A stretch of DNA of 64,000 bases from Streptantibioticus rubrisoli (GTDB taxonomy: Bacteria; Actinomycetota; Actinomycetes; Streptomycetales; Streptomycetaceae), in the NCBI RefSeq assembly GCF_024436055.1, contig NZ_JANFNH010000027.1, forward strand, positions 1 to 64,000. The letters run 5' to 3'. Position 1 is the first letter of the stretch. Every line of letters starts with the position of its first letter. Under the pieces are notes generated by a model. That model was not told where the DNA came from and ran no database searches. It was given only the letters and a program-made list of their open reading frames with translations. A program made the translations under genes and the position numbers. Shown in pieces: positions 35,444 through 60,395 of the stretch.

Positions 35444-36874
35444 TCATGTGGCCGTAACCGCCTTCTCCGGCACCGGAGTTGACGCCGGAAGCGGGTGCGG
35501 GCGGCCCGCGTTCAGGACCGCGTAGGTGACCCCCGTCACCGAAGCGGACAGCAAGAAACTGATGTCGATGCCACCGGTGAAGCGCAGCAACGGACCGCTG
35601 TACAGCGGTGTGTCAACCTCCAGCAGCCCCACCACCGAGCCGTGGGCCCAGGCGGCCACAGCCGACACGTTCCAACCGGCCCGGTACCAGTAGATCCCGC
35701 CGCGGGTACGGCGGTTGTAGACCTGTAGCGCGTCCGCGTCGTAGACCCCCCGCACCCGCCGGAAGCCCATCAGTGTGATCACCGCCCACGGCGTGCCGAC
35801 CGCGGTGAGCACCAGGACGAACGAGGTCATCGCGTCCTGCGCCGCCCACGCGAAGTGGCCGAGGTAGACCAGTGCGGTGGAGACCGCCGCCACCACGTAA
35901 GTGGCCTGCGTACGGGTCGCCTTGGGCAGGATCGCGTCCAGGTCCAGACCCATGCTGTAGAGCATCAACCCGGCGTTGCCCACCGACCCCGCGGACCCGT
36001 TGAGCAGCAGCAGCGGCAGGTACCACGCGGGCGACGCGGCCACCAGCGAGGTCGCGTAGTCGCCACCGGCGCTGACGCACAGCGCGGTGAACGTGCCGAA
36101 GAGTTGTGGCACCAACAGCCCCACGACCAGCCCGAAACAGGTGCCCCAGAACACCTTGGCCTGGCTGAACCGGTTCGGTGAGACATAGCGCGTGTAGTCG
36201 CCGAGCAACGTGATGAACGCGATCGGCCCGCTCAGCCCGGCCGAGACGGCGGACAGCAGCCACGTCGGCCAGTAGCCGCCGAGCAGATACGACGAGCCGT
36301 GCGGTGGCGCGGTGTGGAACAGTCCGAAGTAACCGATCACGCCGATGAACAGCAGCACCGTCAACGAGATGGTCAGCAGTCGGCTCAGCCGCAGCAGCAT
36401 CCGGTAACCGAACACCGCGGACGACGCGGTGGTCAGCGCCAGCACCGCGTAGACCGTCGCATAGCTCGCCGCGCCCGTGGGCAGCCCCAGCATCCGGTGC
36501 AGACAGCCCACCACCGCGTCCCCGCCGACCCACAGGGTGAGCGCGGTGTACCCGAGGGAGAGCAGCAGGCCGATCATCGACCCCAACAGCCGCCCCCGGA
36601 CCCCGAAATGCGCACCGCTGCTGGTCGACAGGTTGGTGGCGGTGCGCAGGGACACCAGCGCGAGCGGCGCCACCAGCACCGTCCCCACCAGCGTGCCCGC
36701 CACCAGTGAGGTGAACGAGCCCCACCAGCCCAGCCCGAAGGAGACCGGGAGCCAGCCGAAGACGATCACGCCCAGGGCGAGGTTCGAGCCCAGCAGAATG
36801 CTGATCACGTCCCGTGGCCCGCTGGTTCGCTCCTCCTCCGGGACGGTGTCGACGCCCCGCTGTTCGATCTGCAT
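35444..36874 (-). CDS. NCS1-family permease (nucleobase/cation symporter 1 type)
   Basis: 476 aa integral membrane protein with about twelve helices. The N-terminal sequence (TSGPRDVISILLGSNLALGVIVFGWLP) and the later Gly/Ser-rich helices fit the purine-cytosine permease (NCS1) family, which takes up nucleobases, allantoin, hydantoins or related compounds. Start ATG 36874 with AAGGAGA six bases upstream; the longer in-frame start at 36916 lacks one and overlaps the operator-like site. Divergent from the urease-like genes, with which it shares a 142-bp promoter region carrying two copies of one pseudo-palindrome. Substrate unknown; a nitrogen compound fed to the adjacent enzymes is likely. Confidence 0.85.
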   Translation of the reverse strand: MQIEQRGVDTVPEEERTSGPRDVISILLGSNLALGVIVFGWLPVSFGLGWWGSFTSLVAGTLVGTVLVAPLALVSLRTATNLSTSSGAHFGVRGRLLGSMIGLLLSLGYTALTLWVGGDAVVGCLHRMLGLPTGAASYATVYAVLALTTASSAVFGYRMLLRLSRLLTISLTVLLFIGVIGYFGLFHTAPPHGSSYLLGGYWPTWLLSAVSAGLSGPIAFITLLGDYTRYVSPNRFSQAKVFWGTCFGLVVGLLVPQLFGTFTALCVSAGGDYATSLVAASPAWYLPLLLLNGSAGSVGNAGLMLYSMGLDLDAILPKATRTQATYVVAAVSTALVYLGHFAWAAQDAMTSFVLVLTAVGTPWAVITLMGFRRVRGVYDADALQVYNRRTRGGIYWYRAGWNVSAVAAWAHGSVVGLLEVDTPLYSGPLLRFTGGIDISFLLSASVTGVTYAVLNAGRPHPLPASTPVPEKAVTAT

Positions 36875-36901
36875 ACGCGGTCTCCTTGACCAGCGACGGT
36901 T

Positions 36902-36916
36902 TAGAACGCCGCTCAA
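36902..36916. promoter_or_regulatory. Operator-like pseudo-palindrome, copy 1 (permease/ureAB region)
   Basis: TAGAACGCCGCTCAA fits the symmetric pattern T-N-GA-N-CG-N-CG-N-TC-N-A at all ten fixed positions. It lies 28 bp before the permease start. The likely ligand is the TetR-family protein encoded at 40472-41074. Confidence 0.5.
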
Positions 36917-36969
36917 TGTGGCTCACGCTGTACGGCAAATCAAGGGTTCAGTTTCAGGGGATTAATTGT

Positions 36970-36984
36970 TAGAGTGACGTTCAA
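36970..36984. promoter_or_regulatory. Operator-like pseudo-palindrome, copy 2 (permease/ureAB region)
   Basis: TAGAGTGACGTTCAA fits the same pattern at nine of ten fixed positions. It lies 33 bp before the ureAB start. Centre-to-centre distance to copy 1 is 68 bp. Confidence 0.5.
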
Positions 36985-37016
36985 ATTCTTGATCTTCCGC
37001 TGGGAGGAGGCGGGGC

Positions 37017-37706
37017 ATGCGGCTGACCCCGACGGAACGCGACCGCCTGCTGCTGTTCGGCGCCGCCGAGCTGGCGCGGGCGCGCCGGGCCCGCGGGCTG
37101 CGGCTCAACGTGCCGGAGGCCACCGCGCTGATCGCCGACACGGTCTGCGAGGCGGCCCGGGACGGCAAGCGGCTCGCCGAGGCGATCGAGGCCGCGCGCA
37201 CCGTGCTGCGGCCCGACGACGTGCTGCCCGGAGTGGCCGATGTGATCGGCGACGTCATGGTCGAGGCGGTCTTCGACGACGGCTCCCGGCTCGCCGTGGT
37301 CAGCGACCCGATATCCGGCGGCTCGCTCGGCGACGACGCGCCCGGCGCCGTACTGCCAGGCCCGGCCGACCCGCCGACCGAGCCCGCGGTGCGGCTGACC
37401 GTGCGCAACACCGCGACCGTCCCGATCTCCGTCACCTCGCACTTCCACTTCTTCGAGGCCAACCCCCGGCTGGACTTCGTCCGTTCGGCCGCGTACGGGA
37501 TGCGGCTGGCGGTGCCCGCCGGGTCCTCGGTGCGGTTCGACCCGGGCGCGGAAGTCGAGGTCGGTCTGGTGCCGATCGGCGGCGACCGGGTGGCGATCGG
37601 CTTCGCCGGTCTGGTCGACGGGCCGCTGGACGCGCCCGGCGCGAAGCGCGAGGCCCTGCGGCGGGCGGTGGCCTGTGGCTACCTGGGAGCGGAGGGGGAG
37701 TCATGA
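37017..37706 (+). CDS. ureAB: Urease-like gamma-beta fusion subunit
   Basis: 229 aa. Residues 1-100 are UreA-like (LTPTERDRLLLFGAAELA ... EATALIADTVCEAARDGK), residues 105-215 are UreB-like (VTSHFHFFEANPRLDF ... AVPAGSSVRFDPG). Such fusions occur in several actinobacteria. ATG after GGGAGGAGG. The stop overlaps the ureC-like start (ATGA), so the subunits are translationally coupled. Divergent from the NCS1 permease. No ureD, E, F or G follows, so nickel insertion would depend on genes elsewhere. Confidence 0.9.
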   Translation: MRLTPTERDRLLLFGAAELARARRARGLRLNVPEATALIADTVCEAARDGKRLAEAIEAARTVLRPDDVLPGVADVIGDVMVEAVFDDGSRLAVVSDPISGGSLGDDAPGAVLPGPADPPTEPAVRLTVRNTATVPISVTSHFHFFEANPRLDFVRSAAYGMRLAVPAGSSVRFDPGAEVEVGLVPIGGDRVAIGFAGLVDGPLDAPGAKREALRRAVACGYLGAEGES

Positions 37707-39388
37707 TCAACACCCGTGAGTACGCGGCCGTGCACGGCCCGCGCGCCGGTGACCGGGTCCGGCTGGGCGATTCCGGGCTGGTGATCCGGGTCGAGTCGGA
37801 CTCCCAGCGCCCCGGCGAGGAGTTCCTGGCCGGGTTCGGCAAGACCGCGCGGGACGGGCTGCACCTGAAGGCCGCCGCGGTGCGCGAGACCTGTGACGTG
37901 GTGATCAGCAACGTGGTGGTGATCGACGCGGCGCTGGGCATCCGCAAGGTGTCCATCGGCATCCGCGAGGGCCGCATCCACGCCATCGGCCGGGCGGGCA
38001 ACCCCGACACGCTCGACGGGGTGGACGTGGTGGTCGGCACCGGCACCACGATCGTGCCCGGGGAGGGCCTGATCGCCACCGCGGGCGCCGTCGACACCCA
38101 CGTCCATCTGCTCTCGCCCCGCGTGATGGAGGCCTCCCTGGCCTCCGGCGTCACCACGATCATCGGCCAGGAGTTCGGCCCGGTGTGGGGCGTCGGTGTC
38201 AACTCGCCGTGGGCGCTGCGTCATGCCTTCAACGCCTTCGACGCCTGGCCGGTCAACATCGGCTTCCTGGCCCGGGGTTCGTCCTCCGACCCGGCGCCGC
38301 TGGTCGAGGCGCTCGCCGAGGGCGGGGCGTCCGGGTTCAAGGTGCACGAGGACATGGGCGCACACGCCCGCGCCCTGGACACCGCGCTACGGGTGGCCGA
38401 GGAGCACGACGTCCAAGTCGCCCTGCACAGCGACGGGTTGAACGAGTGCCTGACCGTCGAGGACACCCTCAGGGTGCTCGAAGGCCGCACCATCCACGCC
38501 TTCCACATCGAGGGCTGCGGCGGCGGCCACGTCCCCAACGTGCTGAAGATGGCGGGCGTGCCGAACGTCATCGGCTCGTCCACCAACCCGACCCTGCCGT
38601 TCGGCCGGGACGCGGTGGCCGAGCACTACGGCATGATCGTCTCCGTCCACGACCTCAAGCCGGACCTGCCCGGCGACGCGGCCATGGCCCGGGACCGGAT
38701 ACGCGCCGGAACCATGGGCGCCGAGGACGTACTGCACGACCTGGGCGCGATCGGCATCACCTCCTCCGACGCACAGGGCATGGGCCGCGCGGGCGAGACC
38801 GTGCGCCGCACCTTCGCCATGGCGGGCAAGATGAAGGCCGACCTGGGACCGCTGGCGGGCGACGGCCCGGACGACGACAACGCCCGGGTGCTGCGCTACA
38901 TCGCCAAGCTCACCGTCAATCCGGCGATCGCCCACGGCCTGGCGCACGAGGTCGGCTCGCTCGAGGTCGGCAAGCTCGCCGACATCGTGCTGTGGCAGCC
39001 GCGCTACTTCGGGGCCAAGCCGCAACTCGTGCTCAAGTCCGGCTTCCCCGCGTACGGGGTGACCGGCGACCCCAACGCGGCCACCGACACCTGCGAACCC
39101 CTGGTACTGGGACCGCAGTTCGGCGCGCACGGGGCGACACCCGCTGATCTGTCGGTGGCGTTCGTCGCCGGGGCCGCCGTCGCCCGCGGGGACGACCGGA
39201 TGCCCACCCGGCGCCGCCGGGTCGCGGTGCGCGGCACCCGTGGCATCGGCCCGGCCGACCTGGTGCTCAACTCCCGCATCGGACACGTCCAGGTGGACGG
39301 CGCCAGCGGCCTGGTGACGCTGGACGGCGAGCCGGTGCGCTCCGATCCGGCCGAGCGGGTCTGCCTCAACCGCCTGTACTTCCTCTGA
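37703..39388 (+). CDS. ureC: Divergent urease-like alpha subunit
   Basis: 561 aa, close to the usual 567-573. All metal and catalytic positions of urease align: His133 and His135 (DTHVH), Lys213 to be carbamylated and His215 (FKVHED), His242 (LHSD), His268 (FHIEG), His316, Arg332 and Asp356 (SSDAQGMG). Differences fall around the active site: the mobile flap MVCHHLDP is IVSVHDLKP (flap Cys replaced by Val315, second His by Asp317), HEDWG is HEDMG, SDTLNE is SDGLNE, FHTEGAGGGH is FHIEGCGGGH. The enzyme should still be a dinuclear metallohydrolase, but substrate or pocket may differ from urea. The open frame continues upstream to 36974, but ATG 37703 gives the standard INTREYA start. Confidence 0.88.
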   Translation: MINTREYAAVHGPRAGDRVRLGDSGLVIRVESDSQRPGEEFLAGFGKTARDGLHLKAAAVRETCDVVISNVVVIDAALGIRKVSIGIREGRIHAIGRAGNPDTLDGVDVVVGTGTTIVPGEGLIATAGAVDTHVHLLSPRVMEASLASGVTTIIGQEFGPVWGVGVNSPWALRHAFNAFDAWPVNIGFLARGSSSDPAPLVEALAEGGASGFKVHEDMGAHARALDTALRVAEEHDVQVALHSDGLNECLTVEDTLRVLEGRTIHAFHIEGCGGGHVPNVLKMAGVPNVIGSSTNPTLPFGRDAVAEHYGMIVSVHDLKPDLPGDAAMARDRIRAGTMGAEDVLHDLGAIGITSSDAQGMGRAGETVRRTFAMAGKMKADLGPLAGDGPDDDNARVLRYIAKLTVNPAIAHGLAHEVGSLEVGKLADIVLWQPRYFGAKPQLVLKSGFPAYGVTGDPNAATDTCEPLVLGPQFGAHGATPADLSVAFVAGAAVARGDDRMPTRRRRVAVRGTRGIGPADLVLNSRIGHVQVDGASGLVTLDGEPVRSDPAERVCLNRLYFL

Positions 39389-39408
39389 TCCCCTAAGGAC
39401 CTGACCGC

Positions 39409-40443
39409 ATGACCGCACTGCCCGCAGCCGACGGCTTCCGCATGCCCCCCGAGTGGGCGCCGCACGACCGCACCTGGATGGCCTGGCCCTCGTCGTCCAT
39501 CACCTTCGACGGTCCCGAGGATCTGGCCGCCTCAAGGGCGGCGTGGGGCGCGGTGGCCGAGGCGGTGGCCCGCTTCGAGCCGGTGACCATGGTCGCCGCG
39601 CCCGGGGACGCGGCGGGTGCGCGCGCCGCTCTCGGTCCCGGCGTGGCGGTGGTCGAACTGCCGCTCAACGACGCCTGGATGCGGGACATGGGGCCCACCT
39701 TCCTGGTGGGTGGCGGTCAACTGGCCGCCGCCGACTGGACGTTCAACGGCTGGGGCGCGCAGGAGTGGGCGCGCTGGGACCTGGACGCGGAGATCGGCGC
39801 GCGGGTGGCCGAGCTGGCCGGGGCCCGCCGCTATCCGTCCAAGCTGGTCAACGAGGGCGGCGGCATCCACGTCGACGGCGAGGGCACGGTGCTGCTCACC
39901 GAGACCGTGCAGCTCGACCCGGGCCGCAACCCCGGCTGGAGCCGAGAGGAGGTCGAGGAGGAGCTGCACGGGTACCTGGGCACGTCCAAGGCGATCTGGC
40001 TGCCGCGCGGGCTCACCGCCGACTACGGCAGGTTCGGTACCCGCGGCCATGTCGACATCGTCGCCGCGTTCGCCCGGCCCGGGGTGGTCGTGGTGCACAG
40101 CCAGCAGGACCCGGCGCACCCCGACCACGAGGTCTCCCGCGAGGTCATCGCAGAGCTGAGCGCCGCCACCGACGCCCGGGGCCGAAGCCTTGAGGTGGTC
40201 GAGCTGCCCGCCCCCACGGTCACCGAGGCCGACGGGGAACCGGTCGACTACTCTTACGTCAACCACTACCTGTGCAACGGCGGCGTCGTGCTGTGCGGCT
40301 TCGACGACCCGGCGGACGAACGCAACGCGGAGATCTTCGCGCGGCTGTTCCCCCAGCGCGAGGTGGTCCTGGTCGACGCCCGTGAGATCTTCGCGCACGG
40401 CGGCGGCATCCACTGCATCACCCAACAGCAGCCCCGGGTGTGA
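39409..40443 (+). CDS. aguA: Agmatine deiminase family protein
   Basis: 344 aa, guanidino-group-modifying enzyme of the agmatine deiminase/peptidylarginine deiminase family. Motifs in order: NDAWMRDMGPTF, VNEGGGIHVDGEGT, RGHVDIVAAF and the C-terminal GGGIHCITQQQP with catalytic Cys336. Agmatine deiminase converts agmatine to N-carbamoylputrescine and ammonia; the HCITQQ ending is typical of that subfamily. ATG 20 bp after ureC; same operon. No N-carbamoylputrescine amidohydrolase (AguB) gene is nearby, although that is the usual partner. Confidence 0.87.
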   Translation: MTALPAADGFRMPPEWAPHDRTWMAWPSSSITFDGPEDLAASRAAWGAVAEAVARFEPVTMVAAPGDAAGARAALGPGVAVVELPLNDAWMRDMGPTFLVGGGQLAAADWTFNGWGAQEWARWDLDAEIGARVAELAGARRYPSKLVNEGGGIHVDGEGTVLLTETVQLDPGRNPGWSREEVEEELHGYLGTSKAIWLPRGLTADYGRFGTRGHVDIVAAFARPGVVVVHSQQDPAHPDHEVSREVIAELSAATDARGRSLEVVELPAPTVTEADGEPVDYSYVNHYLCNGGVVLCGFDDPADERNAEIFARLFPQREVVLVDAREIFAHGGGIHCITQQQPRV

Positions 40444-40471
40444 CCCACCCGGTACGGACTCGGAGGTCGCG

Positions 40472-41074
40472 GTGCCCGGACCCGTCCGCCCCAGGCGACG
40501 GCTGAAGCAGCCCCGGGAGCAGGTGATGGCCGCCGCGATGACGGCCATCGCCGAACGCGGCCTCGCCGAGCTGACCATCGCCGGGCTCGGCCGCGAGGTC
40601 GGCATGAGCAGCGGACACGTCATGTACTACTTCGGCAGCAAGGACGAGCTGCTGCTGCAGACCCTGGAGTGGAGCGAGGAGCAGCTCGGCGTGGAGCGCC
40701 GGGCGGTGCTGTCCCGGCCGGTCCCGGCGCGGGAGCGGCTGGACGCGTTCGTGGACCTCTACCTGCCCGACGGCCCGCGCGACCCGCGCTGGGTGCTGTG
40801 GTCCGAGGTGTGGAACCGCTCCCACCCGACCGAGGAGGCGCTGCGCCGCCAACTCGACCTCGAACTGGTCTGGCACCGCGACCTGGTGGCCCTGGTCGCC
40901 GAGGGCATCTCACACGGCGAGTTCCGCTCCGTGGACCCCGAACGCTTCGCGGTACGGATGCGGGCGCTGCTGGACGGCTTCGGCACGCATCTGGTGGTGG
41001 GACTGCCGGGGGCGGATCGCGGGCAAGTGCTGGGCCACGTGGGCGAGTTCGTGGTGGATTCGCTGGGGCGCTGA
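40472..41074 (+). CDS. TetR-family transcriptional regulator
   Basis: 200 aa. N-terminal TetR helix-turn-helix (REQVMAAAMTAIAERGLAEL ... GLGREVGMSSGHVMYYFGSK), then a ligand-binding helical domain of the BetI/TetR_C type (WVLWSEVWNRS). GTG 40472 with GGAGG five bases upstream; the open frame extends to 40190 but inside aguA. Last gene of the ureAB-ureC-aguA group, 28 bp after aguA. The two pseudo-palindromes at 36902-36916 and 36970-36984 are the natural candidates for its operator, giving control of permease and enzymes together. Confidence 0.88.
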   Translation: MPGPVRPRRRLKQPREQVMAAAMTAIAERGLAELTIAGLGREVGMSSGHVMYYFGSKDELLLQTLEWSEEQLGVERRAVLSRPVPARERLDAFVDLYLPDGPRDPRWVLWSEVWNRSHPTEEALRRQLDLELVWHRDLVALVAEGISHGEFRSVDPERFAVRMRALLDGFGTHLVVGLPGADRGQVLGHVGEFVVDSLGR

Positions 41075-53717: not shown

Positions 53718-54296
53718 CTACCGCAGCCGCGCCATCAGCGCGTGCTCGACCAGCGTGATCAGCGTGCTCTTGGCCTCACCGCGCATCCGCGCGTCGGTGG
53801 TCATGATGGGCGTCTCGGGGCCGATCTGCAGCGCCTCGCGGACCTCTTCCGGGCTGTACGGCTGGTGGCCGTCGAAACCATTCAGCGCGATGACGAACGG
53901 CAGCCCTGAGTTCTCGAAGTAGTCGACCGCCGGGAAGCAGTCCGCCAGCCGCCGGGTGTCGACCAGCACAACCGCGCCGATCGCACCGCGCACCAGGTCG
54001 TCCCACATGAACCAGAAGCGGTCCTGGCCGGGGGTGCCGAACAGGTAGAGGATCAGGTCCTCGTCGAGCGTGATGCGGCCGAAGTCCATCGCCACGGTCG
54101 TGGTGGTCTTGTCCGGCGCGTGGGTCAGATCGTCGATCCCCGCGGAGGCGGAGGTCATCACGGCTTCGGTGCGCAGCGGGTTGATCTCCGATACGGCACC
54201 GACGAACGTGGTCTTGCCCACGCCGAAGCCGCCCGCCACCACGATCTTCGCGGAGGTGGTGGAGCGGGCTGCACCGCTAGAGCTTGCGAAGTCCAC
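53718..54296 (-). CDS. cvnD: Conservon GTP-binding protein CvnD (second conservon)
   Basis: 192 aa Ras-like GTPase of the MglA/CvnD group. P-loop GGFGVGKTTFVG near residue 23, G2/G3 region with FGTPGQDRFWF, and LNGFDG in place of the usual NKxD. Expected at the membrane with CvnA-C as a signalling complex resembling a eukaryotic G-protein system. Overlaps the end of cvnC by 20 bases. By position next to accE it should be the cvn2 set of S. coelicolor. Confidence 0.92.
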   Translation of the reverse strand: MDFASSSGAARSTTSAKIVVAGGFGVGKTTFVGAVSEINPLRTEAVMTSASAGIDDLTHAPDKTTTTVAMDFGRITLDEDLILYLFGTPGQDRFWFMWDDLVRGAIGAVVLVDTRRLADCFPAVDYFENSGLPFVIALNGFDGHQPYSPEEVREALQIGPETPIMTTDARMRGEAKSTLITLVEHALMARLR

Positions 54297-54837
54297 TGAG
54301 CACCCTTTCGAGCAGTGTCACATCTGGCTGGCCACCGGCGGCTTCATCGCCACCGGGCTGGTGGATGGCGACGAGTCCGGCCTCCGCCAGGTCGGCTACG
54401 AGGATTCGGGCGACGCCGAGGGGGATGGAGAGAAGTGCCGAGACCTCTGCCACCGACTTGATCTCGCGGCACAGATGGCAGATCCGCTGGTGTTCCGGGA
54501 GTTGGCCGCGCAACCGCTCCGGATCGGCGGTCGTGGAGACCAACGCCTCGATCGCCAGTTGGTAGCGCGGCCGGGTCCGCCCGCCGGTCATGGCGTACGG
54601 CCGCACCAGCGGCTGCTGGTCGGAGCCGAGCGGCGTACGGCCCCGTACGCCGCCACGGGAGCGCGGCGGTGGCCCCTGCGGCGGCATGTGCGCCTGGATC
54701 CGCGGCGCGGGCTGCTGAGGCTCCTGCCGTACCGGTTCCGGCGACGACTGCAGCTGTGGGCTGGGCGCCGAGGGGAAGTTGAATCGCTTCAGCTGCTGCT
54801 GTTGCGGATCGCCATATCCGCCTGGGGGCGTTGCCAC
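54277..54837 (-). CDS. cvnC: Conservon DUF742 protein CvnC (second conservon)
   Basis: 186 aa. Low-complexity Pro/Gln N-terminal 70 residues, then the DUF742 winged-helix-like domain (LVRPYAMTGGRTRPRYQLAI ... LPEHQRICHLCREIKSVAEV ... PLGVARILVADLAEAGLVAI). Its N-terminal extension is longer than that of the other CvnC here (136 aa). Overlap with cvnD start is 20 bases. Role in the complex is not known; it may interact with CvnD. Confidence 0.9.
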   Translation of the reverse strand: MATPPGGYGDPQQQQLKRFNFPSAPSPQLQSSPEPVRQEPQQPAPRIQAHMPPQGPPPRSRGGVRGRTPLGSDQQPLVRPYAMTGGRTRPRYQLAIEALVSTTADPERLRGQLPEHQRICHLCREIKSVAEVSALLSIPLGVARILVADLAEAGLVAIHQPGGDEAAGGQPDVTLLERVLSGLRKL

Positions 54838-54979
54838 GGTTCCTCCTCCAGCTGGGCGGGGTGCCCTTCACCGTCTCCGCCGCAGGGTTGCCGATGCGTT
54901 AACGCACCTTACGGTCCGGTGACGCATCGGCGCACGCCTGTCCGGTAGTTGGGGCCAGACGGCCGTAGAGCCCTTCAGG

Positions 54980-55402
54980 CTAGCCCAGCAGGCTGCCCTG
55001 CAACTCGGCTCGCAGATCAGGGGTCAGAACGTTGCCCGCGCGATCCACGAGCAGCGCCATCTCGTAGCCCACCAGACCGATGTCGCACTCCGGGTGGGCC
55101 AGCACGGCCAGCGAGGAACCGTCGGAAACGGACATGATGAACATGAAGCCGCGTTCCATCTCGACGACCGTCTGGTTGACGCTGCCGCCCTCGAAGATAC
55201 GCGACGCGCCCGCGGTCAGCGAGGTCAAACCGGAAGCTACGGCGGCGAGTTGGTCGGCCCGGTCCCGAGGGAAGCCCTCGGACATCGCGAGCAGCAGACC
55301 ATCGGCGGAGACCACCACCGTATGGGAGACACCTGGGGTGTTTTCCACGAAGTTGGTGATCAACCAGTTCAGGTTCTGTGCCGCCTGGCTCATCGGACTC
55401 AA
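54980..55402 (-). CDS. cvnB: Conservon roadblock/LC7 protein CvnB (second conservon)
   Basis: 140 aa roadblock/LC7 (MglB-like) protein, partner and probable GTPase-activating protein for CvnD. QNLNWLITNFVENTPGVSHT starts the fold. TTG start (complement of 55400-55402) with AGGAG six bases upstream and immediately adjacent to the cvnA stop; the next ATG, three codons in, is too far from that site. Nearly identical in sequence to the first-conservon copy. The 142-bp gap before cvnC shows no gene. Confidence 0.92.
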   Translation of the reverse strand: MSPMSQAAQNLNWLITNFVENTPGVSHTVVVSADGLLLAMSEGFPRDRADQLAAVASGLTSLTAGASRIFEGGSVNQTVVEMERGFMFIMSVSDGSSLAVLAHPECDIGLVGYEMALLVDRAGNVLTPDLRAELQGSLLG

Positions 55403-58400
55403 CTAACGCTCCTGGTGGTTGGGGCCGAGGCCCTGGCTGTCAGTTGGGGAATCAGTTCCAGCGTTGCGTCCCTGCTGGATGCCGCGGCGCAGGTTACTCA
55501 ACCTGCCGCGTACGTCCTCGGGGGCGCGGGAGACCTGTGGGCCACCCTGCGGGGTCTGGTGTGCGGCGCCGGGGACGAGGTTCGCCTTCGGCACTCGCCG
55601 TGGCAGGCCGGAGCTGGTCACTCCGCCAGCCTTGGGCACGCGGACCTGCTCGGCCCGCTGCCAGTGCTCATCGTTCGCGGAACGCCAGTCCTCGGCGTTG
55701 CCATCGCCTCCCTGCTCCCGCACGGGGCCGTCCGCGAGCGCGTTGTCCTGCCGCTGCGGTGCGGCCGGTTCAGGCTGCTGCCACTGCCGGTTGCGACGTG
55801 GCAGCCCCGCGTCGGTCAGCGAAGGCCCGCTCGTCGGCTCGGCTTCCGGTGCGTCGTAGCCTACGCGCTCCGCGGCTCCAAAGGAGGAGCGCGAATCCGA
55901 ACCCGGTGCCGACCAGCCGTCCTGCTGGTACCCCGGCTGCCACTGCTCGGAGGTGGACTCAGCCTCCTGCTGGTAGCCGTGCGCGGGCTGCTGGGGGGCG
56001 TTGTACTCCCCGGTGTACTCGTGCGGCACCGGTGACACCGGCTGCTCGAAACCGGGATACGACGACTCGGGGTCGTACGACGGCTGCTGTTGGTACGCCG
56101 TTTCGGGCTGGTACGACGACTCGGCGTCGTACGAGGGTTCCGGTCGCGGGTACGGCTGCTGCTCGGGCTGGGCGGCCGGGGCCACCTCGTCGCGGAACAG
56201 CGGCCGCGGCTCGGCCTGCTGGCGCTCGCTGGCGGCGGCCTCCAGGGCCGCCCGGCGCTCCTCGCGCCGCATCTGGCGGCTGATCGGGTCCAGCGCCCGG
56301 GCGTCGTCCGGGACTTCGTAGGCCCGGTCGTCGAAGCCGAGCTCCGCGGCGGTGAACTGACCGGAGTGGAAGTCGTCCGTCTGGTGCTCGGGGACGATCC
56401 GGGAGACGGTGAAGTCGTCGGGCGCCGGTTCCTCGCCGCCACCACCGTGGGTGATCGGCTCCGGCAGCATCACCAGCGAGGTGGTGCCCGCCTGCTCGCC
56501 CGAGGGGCGCAGCTGGACGCGGATGTTGTGCCGGTCGGCCAGGCGGCCCACCACGAACAGGCCCATCCGCTGGGAGACCGAGGCGTCGACCGTCGGCGGG
56601 TCGGCCAGCTTGTGGTTGATGTCCGCGAAGTCCTCGGCGGTCAGGCCGATGCCCTTGTCGTGGATCTCCACCATGACGCGGCCGTCCGGCAGCCGGGTGG
56701 CGGTGACCCGCACCTTGGTCTGCGGGGAGGAGAACGTGGTGGCGTTCTCCAGCAGCTCGGCGAGCAGGTGGACCAGGTCGGTGACGGCCGCGCCGTGGAT
56801 CTCCACCTCGGGTATGGAGGTCAGCTCGATGCGCTCGTAGTCCTCCACCTCGGCGGAGGCCGCGCGCAGCACGTCCACCAGCGGCACCGGCTGGTTCCAG
56901 CTGCGGCCGGGCTCCTCGCCCGCGAGGACCAGCAGGTTCTCACCGTTGCGGCGCATACGGGTGGCCAGGTGGTCCAACTGGAACAGGTTCTCCAGCTGGT
57001 CCGGGTCGGCCTCGTTGTTCTCCAGCTCGGTGATCAGCGACAGCTGGCGCTGGATGAGGTCCTGGTTGCGCACCGACAGGTTGGTGAAGATCGCGTTGAC
57101 GTTGCCGCGCAGCAGTGCCTGCTCGGCGGCGAGCCGTACCGCTTCCCGGTGGACCTGGTCGAACGCCCTGGCCACCTCGCCGATCTCGTCCCTGGTGTTG
57201 ATCGGGATCGGCGTCACCCGGGTGTCCACCCGGCCGGGATCGGTTCGCGAGAGCTGGTCGACCAGGGCCGGAAGGCGCTGCTCGGCCACCTCGAAGGCGG
57301 AGGTGCGCAGCTTGCGCATGCTGCGGCTCATGGAGCGGGCCATCAGCGCGGCCACCACGAAGGCCAGCAGGACACCGGCGAGCACGGCCGCGGAGTTGAC
57401 GATCGCGTTGTTCTTGGCGTCGGAGGCCACCGCGGCGGCGTCGCTCTCGGCCTGGTTGGCCAGCGCCGACTCGATCGTGCGGTAGGCGTTGAAAGCCAGC
57501 GTGGAGGAGGCCCACCAGCTCTGCGGCGTGATGCCCTGGGCGCGCAGCGCGGTCAGCGACTCGCCGGAGGCGATCGCCTTGACCATGGTGACGCGGTCCG
57601 GCGGGGCGACGAACGGCAGACCCGCGGCCTGCGCCTGGGACTTGGCGTCCGCGAGCTGCTGCTTGCCCTGCTGCTGCGCCGCGTCGTTGGCGTCCTGGAG
57701 CCGCTGCATGTCCTGCGGGGTGCCGCCGCCCTCGTACTCCTGCAGCGCGATGTTCTCCAGGTACGCGTAGGAGGACAGCGCGGTCAGCTGGAGCCTGCGC
57801 TCGGACTCGGGGACCTGGCCCTCGGACATCACGTGCATGCCGATGGAACGGGTCAGCGACTCGGCGGCCTTGGCGAGCGAGATGGCGTACAGGGTACGGC
57901 CGTAGCTCGTCATGTTGTTGGTGCCGAAGCCCAGGTCGTTGGCGAACTCCATCAGCGGGTGCTGGACCTGGACGTAGCCCTCCTCGGTCTGCACGGCCGG
58001 CAGCTTGCTGGTGTACGCGGCCTGGCGCAGCGCGGTGAGCTTGGGCTCGACCTGGCGGAAGGAGGCCAACCGGCGCTTCAGGTCCGGCGCATCGGGCATC
58101 TGCGCGACGGCGGCGTTGAACGCGTTGGCGGCGGCGTCGGTGGTGGCCCGGGCGGCGACCACGTCGGAATTCTTTGTGTCACCTTTGAGGAGTGGAACCG
58201 CCGAGCGGTCCCGCTCGTCAATCAATGCGTGGCTATAGGCAGACGCGGCGACGACCAGCTTCGCGGTGCGTTCCGCGTCGTCGGCCTGCTGGTAGCGGTC
58301 CACCGAGTCCTTGACGTTGAAACCGCCGACCACCAGGGCGACCAGCACGGGGATCAGCAGGATCGCGTTCAGCCGGGTCCGCACTCGCCAGTTGCTTGGC

Positions 58401-58531
58401 GAGAAGCGGCTGCCTGTGGGTTCGGGCGGGACGGCTTCGTCGACCGACAACCCGCCACCGCGGCCCGGCGGCGTGAAATTGCCTCGGGCCGGTTGCACGG
58501 TGTCAGGCCGTGTCCGCGTCGTATTCCTCAC
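55403..58531 (-). CDS. cvnA: Conservon sensor-kinase-like CvnA (second conservon)
   Basis: 1042 aa from GTG 58531. Cytoplasmic N-terminus, membrane helix near residues 55-75 (LNAILLIPVLVALVVGGF), extracytoplasmic nitrate/nitrite-sensing-like helical domain, second helix near 385-405, HAMP, and an ATPase domain with N box LLENATTFSS near residue 594 and G1 box DKGIGL near 623. The usual H box is not obvious, so it may bind ATP without phosphotransfer. The C-terminal about 350 residues are Gln/Tyr/Pro/Glu-rich and disordered. The frame continues to 58849, but that part has no coding character. Confidence 0.88.
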   Translation of the reverse strand: MRNTTRTRPDTVQPARGNFTPPGRGGGLSVDEAVPPEPTGSRFSPSNWRVRTRLNAILLIPVLVALVVGGFNVKDSVDRYQQADDAERTAKLVVAASAYSHALIDERDRSAVPLLKGDTKNSDVVAARATTDAAANAFNAAVAQMPDAPDLKRRLASFRQVEPKLTALRQAAYTSKLPAVQTEEGYVQVQHPLMEFANDLGFGTNNMTSYGRTLYAISLAKAAESLTRSIGMHVMSEGQVPESERRLQLTALSSYAYLENIALQEYEGGGTPQDMQRLQDANDAAQQQGKQQLADAKSQAQAAGLPFVAPPDRVTMVKAIASGESLTALRAQGITPQSWWASSTLAFNAYRTIESALANQAESDAAAVASDAKNNAIVNSAAVLAGVLLAFVVAALMARSMSRSMRKLRTSAFEVAEQRLPALVDQLSRTDPGRVDTRVTPIPINTRDEIGEVARAFDQVHREAVRLAAEQALLRGNVNAIFTNLSVRNQDLIQRQLSLITELENNEADPDQLENLFQLDHLATRMRRNGENLLVLAGEEPGRSWNQPVPLVDVLRAASAEVEDYERIELTSIPEVEIHGAAVTDLVHLLAELLENATTFSSPQTKVRVTATRLPDGRVMVEIHDKGIGLTAEDFADINHKLADPPTVDASVSQRMGLFVVGRLADRHNIRVQLRPSGEQAGTTSLVMLPEPITHGGGGEEPAPDDFTVSRIVPEHQTDDFHSGQFTAAELGFDDRAYEVPDDARALDPISRQMRREERRAALEAAASERQQAEPRPLFRDEVAPAAQPEQQPYPRPEPSYDAESSYQPETAYQQQPSYDPESSYPGFEQPVSPVPHEYTGEYNAPQQPAHGYQQEAESTSEQWQPGYQQDGWSAPGSDSRSSFGAAERVGYDAPEAEPTSGPSLTDAGLPRRNRQWQQPEPAAPQRQDNALADGPVREQGGDGNAEDWRSANDEHWQRAEQVRVPKAGGVTSSGLPRRVPKANLVPGAAHQTPQGGPQVSRAPEDVRGRLSNLRRGIQQGRNAGTDSPTDSQGLGPNHQER

Positions 58532-58780
58532 TCGACCAACAACCTCTCGGCGCCGACACACCGACGTGCCGTGTCTACTCGCTGGTTCAACGAATTCCAG
58601 CACGTCACGGCGGTCCTTTCCAAACGTCTGGACAGAGTTCGCCAACCGCCAAGACAGGACTGCTAAAACGGGCATAAGCGCTATTCGGCGGCAAATGACG
58701 GGCGCTAAGTGAGCGCTGTGGAACGGATCGTATGCGGGGGGTGTCCGCCCGCCGGCGATTCTCTGTCGAAACGTTATGAA
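58532..58780. other. Promoter region of the second conservon
   Basis: About 250 bp without a gene. It is less GC-rich than the coding sequence and precedes cvnA on the minus strand. No convincing -35/-10 pair. Because a terminator lies just beyond it, the two conservons are probably separate transcripts. Confidence 0.4.
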
Positions 58781-58822
58781 GGAGCGGGTCGGCCGTGTCA
58801 TAAGACACAGCCGACCCGCTCC
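58781..58822 (-). terminator. Terminator after the first conservon
   Basis: 19-bp stem with one mismatch (58781-58799 with 58804-58822) and an ATAA loop, 31 bp beyond the cvnD stop. Confidence 0.85.
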
Positions 58823-58852
58823 GAGGCGATCACAACTGGCAAGATCCAACGG

Positions 58853-59500
58853 CTACTTGAGTCTGGCCAGCAGCGCGTGCTCCACCAACGTGATCAACGT
58901 GCCCTTGGCGTCCGCCCGCTGGCGGGCGTCGGTGGTCACGATCGGCGCGTCGGAACCGATCTGCAGCGCCTCGCGGACCTCGTCCGGCGTGTACGGCTGC
59001 TTGCCCTCGAAGCCGTTGAGCGCGATGACGAACGGCAGACCCGAGTTCTCGAAGTAGTCCACCGCGGGGAAGCAGTCGGCCAGCCGACGGGTATCGACCA
59101 GGACAACCGCACCGATCGCGCCGCGCACCAGGTCATCCCACATAAACCAGAAACGGTCTTGTCCTGGGGTGCCGAACAGGTAGAGGATCAGGTCGTCATC
59201 GAGGGTGATGCGGCCGAAGTCCATCGCCACGGTGGTGGTCGTCTTGTCGCTGACCTGGCTAAGATCATCGATCCCGGCCGAGGCCGCGGTCATCACCGCC
59301 TCGGTGCGCAGCGGATTGATCTCCGACACGGAACCGACGAATGTGGTCTTGCCGACGCCGAAGCCACCCGCCACCACGATCTTGGCGGAGGTGGTGGAAC
59401 GCGCCGTCTGCTGCCCGTAGGCCGCGCCGTGCTGGGGCAGCCCGCCCGCACCCGGTGCGTACGGGTCGGTGCCCTGCGGCCTAGAGCTTGCGAAGTCCAC
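58853..59500 (-). CDS. cvnD: Conservon GTP-binding protein CvnD (first conservon)
   Basis: 215 aa. Same GTPase as the copy at 53718 (GGFGVGKTTFVG, FGTPGQDRFWF, LNGFEG) with a 23-residue longer Gly/Gln-rich N-terminus. Long stretches, including the segment around DLVRGAIGAVVLVDTRRLAD, are identical between the two. Overlaps cvnC by 20 bases, the same overlap as in the other conservon. Probable cvn1 set by position. Confidence 0.93.
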   Translation of the reverse strand: MDFASSRPQGTDPYAPGAGGLPQHGAAYGQQTARSTTSAKIVVAGGFGVGKTTFVGSVSEINPLRTEAVMTAASAGIDDLSQVSDKTTTTVAMDFGRITLDDDLILYLFGTPGQDRFWFMWDDLVRGAIGAVVLVDTRRLADCFPAVDYFENSGLPFVIALNGFEGKQPYTPDEVREALQIGSDAPIVTTDARQRADAKGTLITLVEHALLARLK

Positions 59501-59891
59501 TGAGCACCCTCTCCAGCAGCGTCACATCGGGCTGTCCACCGGCCTCGCCGCTGCCCGGCTGGTGGATCGCCACCATCCCGGCCTCAGCGAGGTCCGCCAC
59601 CAGGATCCGCGCCACACCGAGCGGGATCGCCAGCAGCGCGGAGATCTCCGCGACCGACTTGATCTCCATGCACAGGTTGCAGATGCGCTGGTGCTCAGGG
59701 AGCAGACCCGCGTACAGCGACGGGTCCGCGCAGGTACTCACCAGCGCCTCGATGGCCAACTGGTATCTGGGTCTGGTGCGACCACCGGTCATGGCATAGG
59801 GCCGCACCAGCGGTTGTTCGCCCTCGTCGGCCTCGTACGGCAGGTGGTGGGAAGCACCGTACGGGTCGGATGGGGCGGGTGGCGGGGTCAT
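59481..59891 (-). CDS. cvnC: Conservon DUF742 protein CvnC (first conservon)
   Basis: 136 aa, typical short CvnC. DUF742 landmarks LVRPYAMTGGRTRPRYQLAI, LPEHQRICNLCMEIKSVAEI and PLGVARILVADLAEAGMVAI. N-terminal linker only about 30 residues. An 81-bp gap separates it from cvnB. Confidence 0.93.
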   Translation of the reverse strand: MTPPPAPSDPYGASHHLPYEADEGEQPLVRPYAMTGGRTRPRYQLAIEALVSTCADPSLYAGLLPEHQRICNLCMEIKSVAEISALLAIPLGVARILVADLAEAGMVAIHQPGSGEAGGQPDVTLLERVLSGLRKL

Positions 59892-59972
59892 GTACGTCGT
59901 CCTCCGAGCGAAGCAGAAGCAGAAGCAAGCTGGTCCGGGTCATTGCGGGGGGAGTACTGCAAAGAGCGAGGA

Positions 59973-60395
59973 TCAGCCGAGCAGGGTGCCTTGCAGCTCG
60001 GCGCGCAGGTCGGGGGTGAGCACGGTTCCCGCCCGGTCCACGAGCAGGGCCATCTCGTAGCCCACCAGGCCGATGTCACACTCCGGGTGCGCCAGTACGG
60101 CGAGGGAGGAACCGTCGGAGATGGACATGATGAACATGAAGCCGCGCTCCATCTCCACCACGGTCTGGTTGACGCTGCCGCCCTCGAAGATACGCGAGGC
60201 GCCCGCGGTCAGCGAGGTCAACCCGGAGGCGACGGCGGCGAGTTGGTCGGCCCGGTCGCGCGGGAAGCCCTCGGACATCGCCAGCAACAACCCATCGGCG
60301 GAGACCACCACCGTATGGGACACCCCGGGCGTGCTGTCCACGAAGTTGGTGATCAACCAGTTCAGATTCTGTGCCGCCTGGCTCATCGGACTCAA
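59973..60395 (-). CDS. cvnB: Conservon roadblock/LC7 protein CvnB (first conservon)
   Basis: 140 aa, differs from the second-conservon CvnB at only a handful of positions (for example VDSTPGV against VENTPGV). TTG start with AGGAG six bases upstream, directly abutting the cvnA stop, exactly as in the other set. Predicted dimeric roadblock partner of CvnD. Confidence 0.93.
   Translation of the reverse strand: MSPMSQAAQNLNWLITNFVDSTPGVSHTVVVSADGLLLAMSEGFPRDRADQLAAVASGLTSLTAGASRIFEGGSVNQTVVEMERGFMFIMSISDGSSLAVLAHPECDIGLVGYEMALLVDRAGTVLTPDLRAELQGTLLG

Follow-up and report, generated by a model that had tools for sequence, protein, structure and literature searches.

The window analysed here, a stretch of 64,000 nt that forms part of contig C24 in the 7.26 Mb, 103-contig genome of Streptantibioticus rubrisoli, carries a compact locus in which genes for a divergent urease (ureAB and ureC) precede a gene for an agmatine-deiminase-family enzyme (aguA). 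Comparison of this locus with its relatives leads us to regard it as probable that the urease is a hydrolase of N-carbamoylputrescine, or of a close ureido compound, working within an agmatine-type catabolic regulon. Urease, the textbook nickel enzyme, is usually portrayed as tailored to urea and reliant on a set of chaperones. We also advance a bolder proposal, tentatively and as something short of an even call: that here the urease fold has switched from urea to N-carbamoylputrescine, needs no UreD, UreF or UreG, and loads its own metal pair (perhaps not nickel), which would make it the third, after AguB and AguY, in a series of non-homologous N-carbamoylputrescine amidohydrolases, and part of a broader clade of ureases that act on ureido compounds without accessory genes. 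The features of the locus are as follows.

35444-36871, minus strand: NCS1-family permease (PF02133, 258.8 bits), probable importer, predicted to take a guanidino or ureido substrate
36901-36916, no strand assigned: operator-like dyad upstream of the NCS1 gene (TTAGARYGNCGYTCAA, 0 mismatches)
36969-36984, no strand assigned: operator-like dyad upstream of ureAB (0 mismatches; 68 bp from the first)
37017-37706, plus strand: ureAB, fused urease gamma/beta subunit (NF009671, 316 bits against a cut-off of 243)
37703-39388, plus strand: ureC, divergent alpha subunit of urease, for which hydrolysis of a ureido compound (N-carbamoylputrescine) is proposed (sequence comparison)
39409-40443, plus strand: aguA, agmatine-deiminase-family enzyme (PF04371 at 379 bits, catalytic residues, tree)
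40472-41074, plus strand: TetR regulator whose C-terminal domain is of the BetI type, and which probably controls this locus (PF00440 and PF13977)

An earlier note on this DNA had described ureAB-ureC-aguA-tetR as tightly packed, with gaps of at most 28 bp, and divergent from the NCS1 gene, and this layout is confirmed: the ureAB stop and the ureC start share a 4-bp ATGA overlap, and gaps of 20 bp and 28 bp separate ureC from aguA and aguA from tetR. The NCS1 reading frame stays open to a TTG at 36916, and gene calls around the core genes rest on codon composition and may be wrong. The same note saw neither ureDEFG nor aguB nearby, which holds for what a translated search of the window covered: besides the ureAB-ureC described above it returned no UreF, UreG, canonical UreC or AguB-like gene, UreD and UreE lying outside that search.

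Partners of the deiminase and their co-occurrence

The deiminase is the sole PF04371 match in its genome. Compared with the Arabidopsis and Enterococcus deiminases (Arabidopsis numbering), it keeps Cys366, His224, Asp226 and Asp94, which are catalytic or bind the guanidine group, and Asp89, Trp91 and Trp125 of the substrate channel; these roles come from the accessible part of PMC6447857, which prints residue 94 as Asn, and residue 226 once as Asn, where the sequences have Asp. Its score of 318.8 bits lies below the TIGR03380 equivalog cut-off of 381.8. We considered this low score as a sign of a different deiminase and rejected the idea, its AguB- and AguY-linked relatives scoring equally low (198-285, all below the cut-off).

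A tree of 63 of 83 AguA rows (20 Streptomycetaceae and duplicate rows left out), built by quick search with support from the Shimodaira-Hasegawa-like approximate likelihood ratio test (SH-aLRT) only, contains one clade of 34 rows (SH-aLRT 100) in which 24 are urease-linked and from the window's family, five AguB-linked and four amidase-linked, the remaining one being L097 of genome G104. An AguB-like nitrilase adjoins the clade deiminase in L104, L105, L107, L110 and L112; against the TIGR03381 cut-off of 410.25, those of L110 (425.9) and L112 (452.8) pass and that of L107 (188) fails. In L106, L108, L109 and L111 the neighbour is an amidase, scoring 1037 bits with NF005127 (cut-off 575) in L108 and 61-81% identical to the L108 protein in the other three, and likened to AguY by length and place. 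The amidase AguY is encoded beside aguA in members of the Proteobacteria and Actinomycetota; according to the accessible text, the enzyme of Microterricola gilva converts N-carbamoylputrescine to putrescine with a kcat/Km above that of Pseudomonas AguB (PMC12283126). Because deiminases of the same clade adjoin AguB or an AguY-like amidase elsewhere in the phylum, the urease appears to stand in AguB's place; and as two of the three alternative partners are N-carbamoylputrescine amidohydrolases, by family or through a tested relative, the same role for the urease is the most economical assumption. The L107 gene row adds a 4-aminobutyrate transaminase (above cut-off), a succinate-semialdehyde-dehydrogenase-like enzyme (below cut-off) and an APC-type permease, a possible agmatine-to-succinate route via putrescine. 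At L104 (7747-9711, G284:C37) AguA nests among urease-linked Streptomycetaceae rows, yet is paired with AguB; the host genome is of another family and has a lower GC content at third codon positions, and a transfer of aguA with change of partner is likely.

Co-occurrence was surveyed in 121 genomes of the window's family, with presence and absence taken from per-genome tables, UreC and AguA identity classes assigned among the matches listed, and a limited number of first-pass candidates scored in each genome search. The divergent UreC is present in 81 genomes (77 full, four only as pieces) and AguA accompanies it in every one; five genomes have AguA alone and 35 have neither. Directly upstream of aguA and on the same strand, ureC is found in 78 of the 86 genomes with AguA, at a spacing of about 4 to 486 bp by match ends, and the pair is also kept outside its leuB-ilvE setting. 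In a draw of 296 genomes from the phylum, 12 belong to the window's family, and nine of these have a UreC at 87% identity or more; the 284 others have none, the next matches reaching at most 54%. Among the matches listed for named genomes in an 80-locus sample, the pair occurs in many Streptomyces, in Kitasatospora and Streptacidiphilus, and also in two Streptosporangiaceae, Thermoactinospora rubra (L179) and Thermocatellispora tengchongensis (L184).

Of the five genomes with AguA alone, G335 has a 3' piece of ureC at the contig start adjoining aguA, which marks an assembly cut; in G104 aguA lies at a contig end, no divergent UreC was found, and there is an AguB that shares 65% identity with the one adjoining aguA in L107; in G299 aguA lies inside its contig, the urease is absent, and AguY is encoded on another contig. 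Thus G299, the sole uncut exception, and G104, one of three left open, carry a known kind of replacement. At L157 (7824-9729, G296:C73) type-I ureAB and ureC survive as fragments next to an aguA of full length; the host genome also has AguY and a second cluster type described below.

The earlier note had asked for such a survey and had counted a functional aguB elsewhere against its proposal, an objection that these genomes do not clearly bear out. None of the 121 genomes has an AguB above the TIGR03381 cut-off. A lower-scoring nitrilase (best TIGR03381 E-value at most 1e-60) is equally common with AguA (80 of 86 genomes) and without it (32 of 35). In the window's genome this protein, on contig C8, scores 259 bits against the AguB cut-off of 410.25; it adjoins a dihydropyrimidinase (above cut-off), which points to a beta-ureidopropionase. 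We therefore rejected it as the deiminase's partner, both for this neighbour and because its presence does not track AguA.

Active site and accessory proteins of the urease

The window UreC matches solved ureases over its full length at 540 bits, so that the urease fold is clear, although it is only 46% identical to the canonical UreC of its own genome and, at 626.1 bits, lies below the urease_alph cut-off of 680. We aligned 76 distinct UreC rows, 49 of them of the divergent type, and use S. pasteurii numbering, with the roles of metal ligands and flap residues (Cys322-His323, Asp224, Arg339) taken from the accessible part of PMC7433671. The metal ligands His137, His139, carbamylated Lys220, His249, His275 and Asp363 are kept in 49 of 49 divergent rows, and the window protein retains both His of DTHVH, Lys220 (K213), His222 (H215), His249 (H242), His275 (H268) and Asp363 (D356). 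Its flap keeps Asp224 (D217), His323 (H316) and Arg339 (R332), and flap His, Arg and Asp are likewise present in all 49. The flap Cys322 is replaced by Val (V315) in the window and by Val or Ala in 48 of the 49; the two divergent UreC that keep this Cys (VSCHGL) are those of L130 and L177. Furthermore, the urea-binding loop at Ala170 is four residues shorter in the window protein and Ala366 is Gly (G359), a residue also seen in some ureases with ureG nearby (L101, L138). The carbonyls of Ala170 and Ala366 hydrogen-bond urea NH2 groups, and one nitrogen points to the channel (PMC7433671, as far as its accessible text goes); the loop shortening and the Ala366 change would hence sit at the point where a substituent on one nitrogen would have to be accommodated. 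UreC is under purifying selection: against three relatives, the ratio of nonsynonymous to synonymous substitution rates (dN/dS) of ureC is 0.07, 0.12 and 0.11, below that of leuB in all three comparisons and of ilvE in two.

In an unrooted tree of 44 of the 76 UreC rows (quick search, SH-aLRT only), a branch with SH-aLRT 99 separates the 20 canonical rows from the divergent ones. The divergent side also holds seven more ureases with no ureG found nearby, and in two of these (L098, L100) an AguA-family gene lies next to ureABC, as it does in L099, where ureC is cut and was kept outside the tree. In a second cluster type of the window's family (L095/L096 in G285:C19, L123, L126, L128, L131, L163, L193 and L204), ureAB and a ureC whose product shares 81-88% identity with the window UreC lie together with TetR genes, genes for other deiminases, some of which show Tat-like signals by eye, and in most cases an Opp-type ABC transporter; perhaps deimination there is extracellular and is followed by import and ureido hydrolysis. 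We dropped the Opp-type genes as candidate nickel importers, as the one substrate-binding protein scored reached 114 bits against a NikA-type cut-off of 600. The same deiminase/Opp cluster occurs in L169 (G299:C6) and L175 (G375:C97) with no urease gene in the fetched stretch. At L146 (4536-10217) an accessory-less ureABC precedes genes for PotA (above cut-off) and a PotB-like permease, a polyamine-type ABC transporter. Another accessory-less urease type precedes an amidohydrolase-like open reading frame in L141, L142 and L241; that of L141 has no NCBIfam match at 1e-40, L241 also has a transporter-like frame, and L235 and L247 hold the L141-type urease as well.

The window's genome encodes a canonical ureABCFGD cluster (UreA by eye) on contig C16 and so has UreD, UreF and UreG on another contig. 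Across the family, however, UreG above cut-off is missing from 14 of 121 genomes, seven of them among the 81 with divergent UreC (G162, G306, G356, G376, G378, G390 and G396); G395, which has the L141-type urease alone, also lacks UreG. UreD and UreF were sought in the seven with divergent UreC and in four positive controls, and both were found in four of four controls. No UreD or UreF match was obtained in G356, G306 (one contig each), G378 or G396, and canonical UreC was also not found in G356, G378 and G396. In G162 the canonical cluster has decayed (G162:C1:445167-448935), with a stop in ureC, a UreD remnant below cut-off and no UreF, while the reading frames of the divergent ureABC-aguA remain open. 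In G390 UreD is partial; the UreF of G376, at a contig start, looks like an assembly gap; in G306 aguA is split by a frameshift. By these searches, then, four or five genomes have kept the divergent urease after losing the nickel chaperones that are known.

Proposed pathway and alternative explanations

The TTAGARYGNCGYTCAA dyad pattern, drawn from the two window sites, occurs in none of 100 window shuffles, and a wider dyad, TTWGARYGNYGYTCWAA, lies at 36901-36917 upstream of the NCS1 gene (one mismatch) and at 36969-36985 upstream of ureAB. Among the type-I loci scanned, each of the 11 that carry NCS1 has a pair of boxes spaced 67-70 bp, and each of the 13 that lack NCS1 has one box or more, which in 12 cases precedes ureAB. 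The 18 loci used to derive the pattern comprised 10 of the 11 with NCS1 and none of the 13 without. L129 and L132, in which tetR is separated from aguA, have a dyad 64 bp upstream of tetR, and none of 33 other loci has one. The paired dyads suggest that permease, urease, deiminase and probably TetR form one regulon in the window's family. In L109 and L111, two loci of the AguY type, aguA likewise has an NCS1 gene as a neighbour (27-28% identity).

In the pathway that we propose, the NCS1 permease would import agmatine or a very close guanidino compound, from which the AguA-type deiminase would release ammonia and leave a mono-substituted urea, most likely N-carbamoylputrescine. UreAB-UreC would then hydrolyse this ureido compound to putrescine, CO2 and ammonia, as the exchange of partners suggests, and TetR would control both transcription units through the paired dyads. 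UreABC would act independently of UreD, UreF and UreG, given that these are absent from several genomes that keep the enzyme, so that its metal may load unaided and may not be nickel. The putrescine thus formed would have an outlet, since S. coelicolor is reported to grow on putrescine as sole nitrogen source (PMC5403932, accessible part). The suggestion of the earlier note that the urease replaces AguB and that the permease belongs to the system finds good support in comparative genomics, through the 81/81 pairing, the partner exchange and the shared dyads; substrate and activity we still infer.

Several observations weigh against this pathway. Known ureases are highly specific for urea, and we know of no NCS1 carrier of agmatine. 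The Fisher value of 2e-25 for UreC-AguA co-occurrence ignores phylogeny, and G341 and G347, with aguA at most 25 bp from a contig end, have no divergent UreC, AguY or L107-type AguB. Other candidates for the second step coexist with the urease: AguY (at least 73% identity, counting G366 in two pieces and leaving out G382 at 50%) is found in 11 of the 121 genomes, all with AguA, namely G299 and 10 of the 81 urease genomes; the L107-type AguB, found in G104, G321 and G324, stands alongside the urease in the latter two; and the lower-scoring nitrilase, present in most genomes, could act as AguB. The divergent UreC of L130 and L177 (Nonomuraea aridisoli) have no deiminase beside them in uncut stretches, the flap Cys is also missing from the canonical-type rows L036 and L242, and the Streptosporangiaceae pairs L179 and L184 lack the dyads. 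In the deiminase, Asp220, which holds agmatine's amine in the plant enzyme (PMC6447857, accessible part), is Gly in the window, the column being approximate owing to an insertion in a longer loop. Lastly, SCO5525-5526 and SCO5527, the likely S. coelicolor counterparts, are reported in the available text of PMC3293853 to be unresponsive to arginine or ArgR, which says nothing either way about induction by agmatine.

The Asp220 change bears on the possibility that the same two-step logic serves another guanidino substrate (e.g., 4-guanidinobutyrate or a modified agmatine), with the urease acting on its ureido product. This we hold to be unlikely, though it is the strongest of the alternatives: the clade-wide loss of Asp220, together with other loop changes relative to plant AguA, speaks for it, as does the Pfam text on the permease family, which names bases, thiamine and allantoin and not polyamines. 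However, AguB- and AguY-linked members share these changes (Gly at Asp220, Ser in L110), so that urease-linked and AguB-linked deiminases cannot be told apart by them, and the M. gilva AguY takes N-carbamoylputrescine as substrate. Position 222, where Arg might have signalled a carboxylate substrate, varies within the clade (Arg, Leu, Gln, Asn or Ser); with no conserved carboxylate-binding Arg, we rejected that sign. Still less probable is a deiminase acting on free guanidine or methylguanidine, with the urease taking the resulting urea or methylurea. It would account both for the pairing with a urease and for a transporter that takes up a small molecule, but AguB and AguY, which take the urease's place, are N-carbamoylputrescine amidohydrolases, and the channel residues Asp89, Trp91 and Trp125 are kept.

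Two further readings concern the urease itself. That it is a second true urease acting on urea, beside the deiminase by chance or for nitrogen supply, is in keeping with the full-length match to solved ureases, the 46% identity to canonical UreC and the complete set of metal ligands, and ure(AB)C is counted among functional urease clusters in the accessible text of PMC5489568. The invariable co-occurrence with AguA, the exchange with AguB and AguY, the altered urea-binding loop and flap Cys, and retention without UreD, UreF, UreG and canonical UreC in G356, G378 and G396 make it improbable; the simpler reading offered in the earlier note, a second and poorly active urease, is weakened by this retention and by purifying selection. 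Lowest of all we rank a catalytically dead or structural UreABC, for which the score below the urease_alph cut-off and the lost flap Cys could be cited, as the metal ligands and flap His, Arg and Asp are intact throughout the divergent rows and the dN/dS of ureC is as low as 0.07-0.12, below leuB each time. The N-carbamoylputrescine hydrolase thus remains our preferred reading.

Away from this locus, two neighbouring gene sets at 53718-60395 of the window have near-identical starts (e.g., 54980-55402 and 59973-60395) and resemble duplicated conservon operons.

Comparison with known systems

If correct, our proposal would show how the specificity and metal loading of urease can be remodelled, would complete the actinobacterial agmatine route with a third solution to the same reaction of polyamine metabolism, and would call for re-annotation of many Streptomyces "ureases". 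A literature search in which subscription journals were thinly covered gave no paper joining urease with agmatine in Streptomyces, and on this we base the claim of novelty. The genes themselves have been seen before: in the available portions of the papers, S. coelicolor SCO5525-5526 are described as urea-utilising genes and SCO5527 as a homologue of the arginine decarboxylase pathway beside SCO6414 (PMC3293853), and ure(AB)C without accessory genes is noted in PMC2492869 and PMC5489568. SCO5525-SCO5527 correspond to ureAB, ureC and the aguA homologue, matched to the window genes by names and order alone, and that literature, as far as available, does not join urease and deiminase into one pathway.

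Relative to the AguA-AguB pathway, the deiminase is of the clade that is elsewhere paired with AguB-like nitrilases, and ureABC takes the nitrilase's place at the window locus. The AguA-AguY pathway, described in 2025, offers the closest precedent, a non-homologous replacement beside aguA; AguY, however, is an amidase, whereas the window enzyme has a di-metal urease fold, and the accessible text of PMC12283126 mentions neither "urease" nor "Streptomyces". We know of no deiminase link for Helicobacter UreA2B2. That iron enzyme is similarly a second urease beside a nickel one and uses another metal, but it acts as a urease (PMC11541087, accessible part). With the canonical nickel urease (UreABC with UreDEFG) the window enzyme shares its subunit make-up, fold family, di-metal ligands including the Lys, and flap His; it differs in the lost flap Cys, the shorter loop, the change of Ala366 to Gly and a locus in which no accessory genes were found.

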